From: Alteromonadaceae bacterium | GTDB taxonomy: Bacteria; Pseudomonadota; Gammaproteobacteria; Pseudomonadales; Cellvibrionaceae | Length of the DNA: 35,498 bases | Assembly (NCBI GenBank): GCA_002746115.1 | Contig: NVXL01000004.1 | Location: forward strand, 1 to 35,498 | Direction of reading: 5' to 3' | In this document: piece by piece, positions 31,919 through 35,498 of the stretch | Numbering within the stretch: the stretch's first letter is position 1 | Layout of the letters: every line of letters starts with the position of its first letter | Position numbers and translations under genes: made by a program | The notes under the pieces: model-generated | What the model was told of the DNA's origin: nothing | Databases searched by the model: none | The model's input: the letters and a program-made list of their open reading frames with translations, nothing else

Positions 31919-32323
31919 TTACTTAGAACCTTCAACCATATAATCAACGGTTGCTTTGATTTCAGCATCAGAGCAATCGAAGCACAAGCCTTTAGGTGGC
32001 ATAGCGCCAAAGCCGCTAAGCGCACTGGTGTAAAGTGCATCGCTACCTTTTGCAATACGTGCGCTCCACGCAGCCGTATCACCTAGTTTAGGTGCATTAG
32101 CAGCGCCCGTGGCGTGGCAAGAAGCGCACTTGGAGTCGTAAACCGCTTGGCCTGAACGCCCAGCCGTTGTAACTGCTGCATCGTCGCTCTTAGTTTTCGC
32201 GCAATCTTCGCCAGCCATACACACAGAACCAACAGGCTTAGTGCGCTCTTGCATGGTATCAGCCACAACATTAAATGAGATTGTGACCAGCACCATAGCG
32301 GCTAGTTTGATAAAAAAATTCAT
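31919..32323 (-). CDS. Cytochrome c5-family protein
   Basis: This periplasmic electron carrier binds one covalent haem. The 134-residue precursor has a signal peptide ending NVVA|D near residue 22, a CASCH haem-binding motif, and the c5-type end GFGAMPPKGLCFDCSDAEIKATVDYM with the Met ligand and paired cysteines. A Cys-containing linker (VCMAGEDCAKTKSDD) precedes the haem domain. Ribosome-binding site AAGGTG lies seven bases before the ATG. The position next to rep matches recalled Pseudomonas order. A possible FNR-type site lies about 160 bases upstream. Confidence 0.93.
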   Translation of the reverse strand: MNFFIKLAAMVLVTISFNVVADTMQERTKPVGSVCMAGEDCAKTKSDDAAVTTAGRSGQAVYDSKCASCHATGAANAPKLGDTAAWSARIAKGSDALYTSALSGFGAMPPKGLCFDCSDAEIKATVDYMVEGSK

Positions 32324-32625: not shown

Positions 32626-32702
32626 GCACCCGTAGCTCAGCTGGATAGAGTAGGTGGCTTCGAACCACTTGGTCGGGAGTTCGAATCTCTCCGGGTGCGC
32701 CA
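32626..32702 (+). tRNA. tRNA-Arg (anticodon UCG)
   Basis: The 77-base gene folds fully. The acceptor GCACCCG pairs with CGGGTGC, D-stem GCTC with GAGT, anticodon stem GGTGG with CCACT (one G-U), and T-stem GGGAG with CTCTC (one G-U) around TTCGAAT. The loop CTTCGAA places TCG at 32660-32662, giving anticodon UCG for arginine CGA codons. CCA is encoded (32700-32702). It marks the point after which recognisable conserved gene order stops. Confidence 0.96.
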
Positions 32703-32853
32703 TTTTATACCGATAATCTAAAACTTCCCTAAAGCCTTAAAGCTGTGCCGCACTGGCAAACAGCCCACTCAAAGGCACGACAACCTTACTACTGCATGCT
32801 ACCATTCCGCCAAATATTTCCGCTCGTTTTTTGTTACTTTCTGAGGCTCCCTT

Positions 32854-33276
32854 ATGACACAAGTTCAAACCAAAATTGCTATAGTTGCAGCGCCATATTA
32901 TGACTGTGTACAAGAAATGATAGGGATTGTGGAGGAAGGCCTAAATAAGAATATTGCAAACCTAGAGACAGTTACGTTTTGCACCTCTGGGGCATTTGAG
33001 CTTCCGCTAATTGTCGCTAAGGTGCTTCAAGGTGATTTTGATGCTGTTGTTACGCTGGGTGCAGTCGAAAAGGGAGAAACCGGACATGGTGAAGCGATCA
33101 CCAATGCAGTGATTCCAGAATTGAGTCGCTTATCGGTTCAATATGAAAAGCCTGTAGTCCTAGGCATTATCGGTCCACGTGCTACTTTAGTGCAGATAGA
33201 TGCCCGAGCACAGAGTGTCGCGTCTGAAGCTGTCACTGCCGTCGTTACCCAGTTAAATATACTTCGCAGTTTATAG
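32854..33276 (+). CDS. Lumazine synthase, archaeal-looking type (RibH-like)
   Basis: Lumazine synthase condenses a pyrimidine and a four-carbon phosphate into 6,7-dimethyl-8-ribityllumazine, the riboflavin precursor. The 140 residues keep TSGAFELPLIVAKV (44-57), DAVVTLGAVEKGETGHGE (63-80) with the catalytic His78, and a phosphate-binding Arg in QIDARAQ (Arg118). However, GIIGPRATLVQIDAR replaces the usual bacterial GVLTTDTxEQAxxRA, and the GNKG motif is absent; the pattern resembles archaeal RibH as I recall it (GISGPGMTxxQAxxR). GAGG precedes the ATG. No other riboflavin gene is near, so this is probably a second, stand-alone copy. Activity is likely but unproven. Confidence 0.85.
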   Translation: MTQVQTKIAIVAAPYYDCVQEMIGIVEEGLNKNIANLETVTFCTSGAFELPLIVAKVLQGDFDAVVTLGAVEKGETGHGEAITNAVIPELSRLSVQYEKPVVLGIIGPRATLVQIDARAQSVASEAVTAVVTQLNILRSL

Positions 33277-33378: not shown

Positions 33379-33876
33379 CTAAGTATTATCGTGCTCAGTA
33401 CGCGGTAAAAACTTGTACTTATCAATCTTATTCGATGTCGTACAGCCTTTCATAAACCCATTCAAAACAATACCCGCAGCCACGGTGACATTGAGCGAGG
33501 CGCCGACACCAAACTGTGGAATAAATACACAGTAATCACACAATTCCAAAATGGAAGGTTTAATACCATCCCACTCATTGCCCAAAATAAACACTGTATT
33601 TTTGACAAAATCATGGGTATTAACATCAAAGCTGTTTTCTGTAATCTCCACCCCCACTATGTCATAGCCTTGCTCGTGATAGTGCAACGCAGCCTCTTCC
33701 ACTTTATAAAAATGACGAAATGGGGTGGCCTGTTGAGTATTTTGATTGCCGTAGGTGGAGAACTTCTTTTTGCCAATAATACAGATCTCCTCAGCACCTA
33801 AAGCATTGGCTGTTCTTATCAGCTGACCAATGTTTTTCCCTTTTGCGATATTGAACAATAAAAGTACAAATTTCAT
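33379..33876 (-). CDS. SpoU/TrmH-family RNA 2'-O-methyltransferase
   Basis: SPOUT enzymes methylate ribose 2'-OH in tRNA or rRNA. The 165 residues contain motif 1 KGKNIGQLIRTANALGAEEICIIG (about 12-35), motif 2 VFILGNEWDGI, and motif 3 IPQFGVGASLNVTVAAGIVLNGF, which form the knotted SAM site. The N-terminal RNA-binding extension of larger family members is missing, so it is a minimal domain form like TrmL. The conserved Asn and Arg of motif 1 are present. Target unknown. It stands alone, convergent with the ribH-like gene. Confidence 0.9.
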   Translation of the reverse strand: MKFVLLLFNIAKGKNIGQLIRTANALGAEEICIIGKKKFSTYGNQNTQQATPFRHFYKVEEAALHYHEQGYDIVGVEITENSFDVNTHDFVKNTVFILGNEWDGIKPSILELCDYCVFIPQFGVGASLNVTVAAGIVLNGFMKGCTTSNKIDKYKFLPRTEHDNT

Positions 33877-34812: not shown

Positions 34813-35498
34813 ATGAAAAATTTAGTTTTAAGCACTGCTTTATTAGGCTCTGCATTGTTCGCAGCCAACACTCAGGCGATCGAACTACAAGTTTCCATCA
34901 GCAACTTAACCCAAGGAATGTCGTTCACGCCACGATTATTAGTTGCCCATACAAGCGATGTCGATTTATACCAAACCGGAGTTGCCGCTTCAACGCCATT
35001 AGCTTGGCTCGCCGAATCTGGGTCAATTACCGATGCAAGCAACGCAGCCTCTGCTGGTGAAAATTTCGAGTGGATGTTAGAAACCACTGAGAATGCTCCC
35101 AACAATACTTGGCAGGTGTTTGGTGGCTTATTAGCACCAGCTACAACGTCTGCTGCTTATACCTTTGAAACCAATGATATGCCTTATCTATCGCTTGTTT
35201 CTATGCTGATTCCTACCAATGATGCATTCGTCGGTATGGACTCTATAGCCATTCCAAGCGCGCCAGGCACTTACAACTATTACCTTAACGCCTATGATGC
35301 TGGCACCGAATTAAATGACGAAATCAGCCCAGCAACCTCCACGGCTACTGAAGCTGGCAGCGGTGATGCACTCGGCGGCTACGGCGTACCGGGCATGGCT
35401 GGTGTGGGCGCACCGACCGTCAGTAACATAGGCTCGGCTGCAACCGGTGTTGCCGTTCAAATCGATGGTAGCAACCAAATTGCTGACGGCACCGATGG
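34813..35498 (+). CDS. Spondin-domain exported protein, cut by window end
   Basis: The frame from the ATG at 34813 is open for 228 codons to the edge. It begins with a signal peptide (MKNLVLSTALLGSALFAANTQA), followed by a Spondin_N-type domain: SNLTQGMSFTPRLLVAHTSDVDLYQTG, then MPYLSLVSMLIPTNDAFVGMDSIAIPS and YYLNAYDAGTELNDE. Many marine and environmental bacteria encode such proteins, exported and of unknown function; in animals the domain is in extracellular adhesion proteins. The visible end is Gly/Ala-rich. AGGA lies 11 bases upstream. Export by the type II system encoded at the other end of the window is conceivable but not shown. Confidence 0.88.
   Translation, partial: MKNLVLSTALLGSALFAANTQAIELQVSISNLTQGMSFTPRLLVAHTSDVDLYQTGVAASTPLAWLAESGSITDASNAASAGENFEWMLETTENAPNNTWQVFGGLLAPATTSAAYTFETNDMPYLSLVSMLIPTNDAFVGMDSIAIPSAPGTYNYYLNAYDAGTELNDEISPATSTATEAGSGDALGGYGVPGMAGVGAPTVSNIGSAATGVAVQIDGSNQIADGTD

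Follow-up and report, generated by a model that had tools for sequence, protein, structure and literature searches.

The flavophos cluster of Burkholderia encodes BsfB, a duplicate lumazine synthase (RibH) that confers immunity; flavophos inhibits the lumazine synthase of E. coli, and expressed BsfB protects E. coli (PMC12871164). According to the same report, overexpressed lumazine synthases from several organisms, even mutants of low activity, also protect, and for this reason an intrinsic insensitivity of BsfB is not demonstrated there. The string "archae" occurs twice in the main text of that paper, neither time in connection with BsfB. The roles and the numbering of the catalytic residues Phe22, His88 and Arg127 of the B. 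subtilis lumazine synthase are given in the same source (PMC12871164). Brucella, which has two lumazine synthases, cannot survive unless one or the other is present (PMC2828483). Our literature search, which covered titles and the beginnings of abstracts, with subscription papers mostly outside its scope, found no paper on a bacterial RibH replaced by an archaeal-like one.

Here we characterized a ribH gene located in the window, i.e., the whole 35,498-nucleotide stretch of DNA that was analysed. A tRNA-Arg gene with the anticodon TCG (32626..32702, + strand; ARAGORN, and Rfam RF00005 with 63.9 bits) is followed, after 151 bp and on the same strand, by an open reading frame (32854..33276) encoding a protein of 140 aa, which was assigned as an archaeal-like, BsfB-like lumazine synthase based on Pfam PF00885, sequence profiles, trees and a structural model. 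A GAGG motif, read by eye as a possible ribosome-binding site, is located 7 bases ahead of the ATG (32843..32846, + strand). The upstream neighbours, given for context, are a c-type cytochrome (31919..32323, - strand; Pfam PF13442, 64.1 bits) and a Rep-type helicase named by eye; downstream are a convergent SpoU-family RNA methyltransferase (33379..33876, - strand; Pfam PF00588, 96.8 bits) and signal peptidase II. None of the genes adjoining ribH belongs to riboflavin synthesis, as judged by open reading frames and Pfam matches in the window, and no FMN riboswitch reached the Rfam gathering scores in the window or in the analysed stretch of contig C86. The preliminary description of this DNA, which had placed a RibH-like gene with two quoted motifs just past a tRNA gene and without riboflavin neighbours, was accurate in both respects. 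On contig C262, from window position 34813 (L037 1814-3480), two adjacent, apparently secreted proteins were recognized by eye, the second containing collagen-like GDTGAQ repeats, with several ambiguous assembly bases around them.

Residues 6-137 of the window protein matched the Pfam family DMRL_synthase (PF00885) with an E-value of 7.9e-24 and 84.6 bits, at a cut-off of 26.7. An AlphaFold2 model, for which 49 archaeal homologues served as input, reached a pLDDT of 94.7, and the solved structures closest to it were lumazine synthases (E 1.1e-8 in Foldseek, and Z 21.5 for 136 residues at 1.5 A in the structural comparison with the PDB), followed by the archaeal riboflavin synthase, a relative, with Z 18.5. 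Since both the Pfam match and the model fit lumazine synthases, the open reading frame is not a chance reading. Identity with the archaeal riboflavin synthase (RibC) was rejected at 15.2 bits to TIGR01506, which has a cut-off of 100.55. Tyr15, His78 and Arg118 of the window protein align with the catalytic Phe22, His88 and Arg127. In the row alignment, His78 falls within codons 69-80, GAVEKGETGHGE (33058..33093, + strand), together with the signature residues E72 and G79, and Arg118 falls within codons 104-118, GIIGPRATLVQIDAR (33163..33207, + strand), along with an archaeal-type G-x-x-G-P turn. The Tyr15 position is aromatic in nearly all aligned rows (Phe or Tyr in 76/79 archaeal rows, Trp or Phe in 83/84 bacterial rows), and arginine occupies the Arg118 position in 79/79 archaeal and 77/84 bacterial rows. 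The aligned window protein lacks the lysine-bearing GTKAGNKG loop of bacterial enzymes.

For the NCBI equivalog model TIGR00114, the window protein scored 74.8 bits, under the cut-off of 84.6, which is a naming threshold and not an enzyme property. Three of the four BsfB-like proteins that were scored were also under this cut-off (80.8, 81.3 and 71.0) and one was over it (85.2); three archaeal proteins and the E. coli lumazine synthase exceeded it. This score, the missing lysine loop and the lack of riboflavin neighbours would fit a protein that makes another product, in a cell that lives on imported riboflavin or uses an unknown enzyme. We consider this very improbable, given that the catalytic positions are kept, that ribD, ribE and ribBA are present in a genome with no other PF00885 match, and that a BsfB-like gene is the only such match in two further genomes, G1135 and G1158, both with riboflavin synthase matches.

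By its sequence, the window protein is archaeal-like and BsfB-like and not an ordinary native RibH; we limit the claim to this likeness, and do not extend it to an origin from archaea, because the window row forms a long branch. When compared with profiles of 79 archaeal and 84 bacterial rows, the protein scored 97.4 bits for the archaeal versus 80.2 bits for the bacterial profile. Rows dropped before the counts were one that was too short (L092), two identical to kept rows (L120 and L168) and the window's own copies (L001, L037-L039 and L137). For held-out rows the difference between the two profiles was +50 to +146 bits in archaea and -173 to -51 in bacteria, so that the window protein, with +17 bits, lies on the archaeal side yet near the middle. 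A first scan of GTDB with the window protein alone as the query gave no matches. A further scan, whose patterns were deliberately weighted towards archaeal sequence, yielded 298 confirmed loci, of which 80 were kept, all of them archaeal, with an identity of at most 41% over 133 residues among the matches listed. In a common search, scores were 67-85 bits for the 80 archaeal loci and 40-60 bits for 35 ordinary loci, with 53 bits for one haloarchaeal locus and 57 and 69 bits for two BsfB-like loci. The archaeal-like RibH of the preliminary description is thus borne out by the profiles and by the GTDB loci kept, and of the two motifs that it had taken as archaeal, one proved archaeal-like and the other not simply so. 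In the GIIGP turn, G107 is found in 79/79 and P108 in 78/79 archaeal rows, and this glycine in 2/84 bacterial rows; the pattern G-[IV]-x-G-P, present in the window protein, occurs in 78/79 archaeal and 0/84 bacterial rows. The other motif, GAVEKGETGHGE, is not simply archaeal: its E72/G79 signature was found in 0/79 archaeal and 0/84 bacterial rows, and a third, bacterial group has it as well. The catalytic His is followed by Asp (H-D) in 79/79 archaeal rows, and the window protein has H-G.

No close homologue was found among the 389 other genomes of the order: the four matches at E <=1e-12 scored 49.5-51 bits, and in the tree they sit among bacterial RibH. In the class sample, three others among 369 genomes passed an E-value of 1e-13, with 58.8 bits at most. 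Phylogenetic analysis of 167 rows revealed a split of archaea, BsfB-like proteins and the window protein from all 84 bacterial rows, with a support of 99/93. The same partition (98/93) was recovered in a 58-row tree containing all seven BsfB-like rows, which consisted of a random draw plus chosen rows, with five long bacterial rows left out. With the BsfB-like rows left out, the window protein was placed on the branch between archaea and bacteria in two trees, one of which held 22 archaeal and 22 bacterial rows and omitted eight long rows as well. A long-branch warning applies to the window row in both the 167-row and the 58-row tree.

The AU test rejected a grouping of the window protein with nine rows of ordinary RibH from the same order (p 0.00016), and with it an ancestry inside ordinary native RibH, in agreement with the phylogeny that the preliminary description implied. 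Placement with the diverged RibH of genomes G002 and G016 (p 0.197) and on the stem of all bacterial RibH (p 0.285) was not rejected, and placement with archaea alone, BsfB-like proteins excluded, gave p 0.071. A grouping with three RibH2-like rows, a label assigned by us and not by a tool, was disfavoured (p 0.016). The two unrejected bacterial placements and the long end branch would suit a fast-evolved native or family-specific ribH that moved beside the tRNA gene and acquired its archaeal likeness by convergence and long-branch effects. We regard this explanation as distinctly unlikely, in view of the rejected same-order grouping, the archaeal G-P turn with the short loop, the signature residues common to a separate bacterial group, and the outlying third-position GC content (GC3) of the gene.

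A family search with PF00885 across the draft genome (6.28 Mb in 297 contigs, with an estimated completeness of 100%) revealed a single match, the window gene; scoring of all 7 initial candidates left this one match, and no second ribH was found elsewhere in the draft. RibH was present in 36/37 other relatives searched, the remaining genome being 75% complete, and the best copy per relative scored 118-203 bits in these 36, versus 84 for the window protein. The riboflavin genes are located on contig C86 in the order nrdR, ribD, ribE, ribBA, nusB, an AIR-synthase-type gene in the position of thiL and pgpA, with a separate GTP cyclohydrolase II gene further along the contig, past pgpA. The nusB start follows the ribBA stop after 67 bases, which contain no ambiguous letters and no ribH; a few ambiguous bases occur within the ribD sequence. 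Among the relatives, ribH adjoins nusB in 35/35 examined (35 of the 36 that bear RibH, with the main copy of G014 left out), and ribBA was seen on its other side in 31. Thus, the tested remainder of the pathway is in place, and the native ribH is absent from where it normally lies. In two other genera of the same family, represented by G002 (L131, C11:42843-43253) and G016 (L129, C2:483061-483474), the only RibH is of a highly diverged type (118-124 bits), still located between ribBA and nusB.

The preliminary description had looked to a second ribH accompanied by pathway genes, and had proposed a different lumazine-like product or a role under special conditions for the window gene. No such second copy was found in the genome, and its riboflavin operon has no ribH of its own; because of this, the window gene is most simply the housekeeping enzyme, and the proposal of a different product or of special conditions finds no support. 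That the window gene is the sole ribH, an outcome which the preliminary description had named as refuting, concerns the suggested role rather than the archaeal-like character of the protein.

The GC3 of the window ribH is 0.35, and a value as low was found in 1/76 other open reading frames (median 0.47), taken mechanically at >=150 aa from contigs C262 and C86. Comparison of the locus in 20 relatives revealed that 12 have a cytochrome c homologue in the ~5 kb past the helicase gene, 10 of them immediately next to it, and that 3 have a tRNA-Arg within ~5 kb of the helicase gene. The region beyond a tRNA-Arg (CCG) at this locus contains a gene for a tyrosine integrase in G004 and for a serine recombinase in G003; in G007, the tRNA-Arg, identical to that of the window in 77/77 positions, lies beyond the cytochrome c gene. 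Neither the integrase of G004 nor the recombinase of G003 had a match on the contig of the window, C262, where the tRNA 3' end is not repeated either; because of this, an insertion of ribH at the tRNA-Arg is only plausible. Acquisition of the gene, as suggested in the preliminary description, is probable, considering the lack of a close homologue in the order, the low GC3 and the integrase and recombinase genes of the two relatives. Carriage by a phage or plasmid was rejected, with best matches of 54 bits among 50,697 phage records and 64 bits among 72,556 plasmid records, and no relatives were confirmed in viral contigs. RibH-like genes were noted on large phages of Staphylococcus (H21 and H22) and on a large conjugative plasmid of Enterococcus faecium (L173), and their products share ~31-32% identity with the window protein across 100 residues. 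Just before its intact tRNA-Arg, G007 has two repeats of ~175 bp (L211 3939-4287) that are rich in short palindromes; the first 18 bases of each resemble the tRNA-Arg start, with full identity in one repeat and 89% in the other.

As delimited by sequence comparison, the BsfB-like proteins are the nearest bacterial kin of the window protein and occur rarely, in Burkholderia, Azospirillum and a small number of further Pseudomonadota. Members were identified in Burkholderia stagnalis (L044), Azospirillum (L045) and G551 (L138), and then in G1159, G1135, G1251 and G1158. BsfB-like genes are present in 5/367 genomes of the class of G551, with G551 counted, and among 398 genomes sampled from the phylum only two scores are exceptional, 214 bits for the window genome and 153 for G551, ahead of a next value of 72. 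The signature E-[KR]-G-E-T-x-H-G is common to the window protein and 7/7 members (8/8 in total) and occurs in 0/79 archaea and 0/84 other bacteria, an agreement that is partly by construction, as members were picked up through their similarity to the window protein or to profiles containing it. The window protein and the first three members formed a clade with a support of 98/92 in the 167-row tree; with all seven members, the support was 90/91 in the 58-row tree. In G551 (L234 5175-7253, C28), the stop codon of a cysteinyl-tRNA synthetase gene is immediately followed by the start of the BsfB-like ribH.

A parallel case was observed in genus g626, which we infer to belong to the alphaproteobacteria. 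In G1251 of this genus, nrdR and ribE are followed by a PF00885 gene of 56-57 bits and then by nusB. This in-operon gene (L249 1492-1926, C91) is an open frame that lacks the catalytic His and Arg in the alignment, and is possibly decaying or has taken a new role. In its genus-mate G1135, nrdR and ribE are followed by nusB, with no ribH between. Both genomes, each 87% complete, carry a BsfB-like RibH, which in G1135 is the only PF00885 match; the same is true of the BsfB-like gene of G1158 (95% complete, 6% contaminated). Riboflavin synthase matches were found in all three, that of G1158 as two halves in separate open frames, indicating a broken gene or a faulty assembly. The g626 genomes and G1158 support a predicted lumazine synthase function for the BsfB-like group, and the apparent loss of the native ribH alongside a BsfB-like copy in g626 shows the same outcome as in the window genome. 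A second RibH is kept in G551 and G1159; the in-operon RibH of G1159 (L244 1489-1947, C2), a genome that also has a BsfB-like copy, contains an Arg at the expected catalytic His.

The ribH of Burkholderia L044 is located on the opposite strand, among genes for a PEP mutase, a BKACE protein and an EamA transporter, and by gene content and orientation, not by sequence comparison with BsfB, the locus looks like the flavophos cluster. This kinship raises a possible cause for displacement, one that adds to it and does not exclude it: the window product would tolerate phosphonates such as flavophos, the sensitive native copy would have been dropped, and a resistance gene would have turned into a housekeeping gene. 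The presence of such a locus among the nearest bacterial kin, the common signature and the clade of the 167-row tree are consistent with this proposal. Arguing against it are the deep split with 38% identity, the decrease in support in the 58-row tree, and the protection by other overexpressed lumazine synthases in PMC12871164. Furthermore, four proteins of the L044 cluster have no homologue on contig C262 or on the 16-kb C86 stretch, and no phosphonate cluster was seen by eye in the fetched flanks of the other group members. We regard phosphonate tolerance as a tentative and, on balance, unlikely cause. A broader idea, slightly more doubtful still, is that phosphonate-tolerant, BsfB-like RibH moved among bacteria and more than once permitted the drug-sensitive native ribH to be lost from the riboflavin operon, here and separately in the genus of G1135 and G1251, which would amount to resistance by permanent target replacement.

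The reading that we prefer, with a probability of roughly 0.8, is that the window gene encodes the housekeeping lumazine synthase, acquired horizontally, and that the native ribH was then lost. It draws on the predicted fold, the key residues, the sole copy, the other pathway genes, the absent native gene, the non-native phylogeny, the 17-bit margin of the archaeal profile, the low GC3 and the parallel case of G1251 and G1135. The points against it are the TIGR00114 score under the cut-off, the absent lysine loop, the long branch with its two unrejected bacterial placements, the position between archaea and bacteria once the BsfB-like rows are left out, the lack of an integrase match or tRNA repeat on C262, and a draft in 297 contigs. 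If active, the window RibH would condense two substrates, 5-amino-6-ribitylaminouracil supplied by the RibD branch and the dihydroxybutanone phosphate made by RibBA, into 6,7-dimethyl-8-ribityllumazine, which RibE would convert into riboflavin. We infer that acquisition preceded deletion: a gene whose source was an archaeal-like (BsfB-like) lumazine synthase lineage would have entered, plausibly at the tRNA-Arg, and the foreign copy would have made the native ribH between ribBA and nusB redundant, leading to its deletion.

Displacement would mean that a core enzyme of a vitamin pathway was apparently exchanged for an archaeal-like counterpart that is deeply diverged and encoded at an unlinked locus, while the operon no longer holds the native gene. 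In G1251 and G1135, a second lineage seems to have been caught with a decayed and then a deleted ribH copy. Our analysis also points out a small group of lumazine synthases that mostly fall below the cut-off of the NCBI model. Should phosphonate tolerance be the cause, natural inhibitors of riboflavin synthesis would be linked to gene replacement, with the warning that lumazine synthase as a drug target can be swapped wholesale.

When compared with known systems, the window protein resembles the archaeal RibH of Methanocaldococcus, Thermoplasmata, Desulfurococcales and others, with up to 41% identity over the full length among the matches listed, the G-[IV]-x-G-P turn, a short N-terminus and no loop of the GTKAGNKG type. 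In contrast to archaeal RibH, it lacks the Asp after the catalytic His and the Ile, Val, Leu or Met at position 72, and in the trees obtained, where its row is a long branch, it did not appear inside the main archaeal branch. The ordinary operonic RibH of the order and of E. coli has the same fold and the same catalytic positions, but the ordinary loci reached only 40-60 bits with the window protein and a same-order ancestry was rejected. RibH2 of the Brucella type is likewise a divergent second lumazine synthase; however, it represents another sequence type, and the grouping was disfavoured. A further comparison is with BsfB, represented by its B. stagnalis homologue L044, which has in common with the window protein the PF00885 domain, the short loop, the GIxGP turn, the E-[KR]-G-E-T-x-H-G signature and the conserved aromatic, His and Arg residues, at an identity of only 38%; the trees place the two as probable sister groups, subject to the long-branch warning. 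BsfB is encoded within a phosphonate cluster as an additional copy, whereas the window gene is the sole RibH of its genome, alone beside a tRNA gene.
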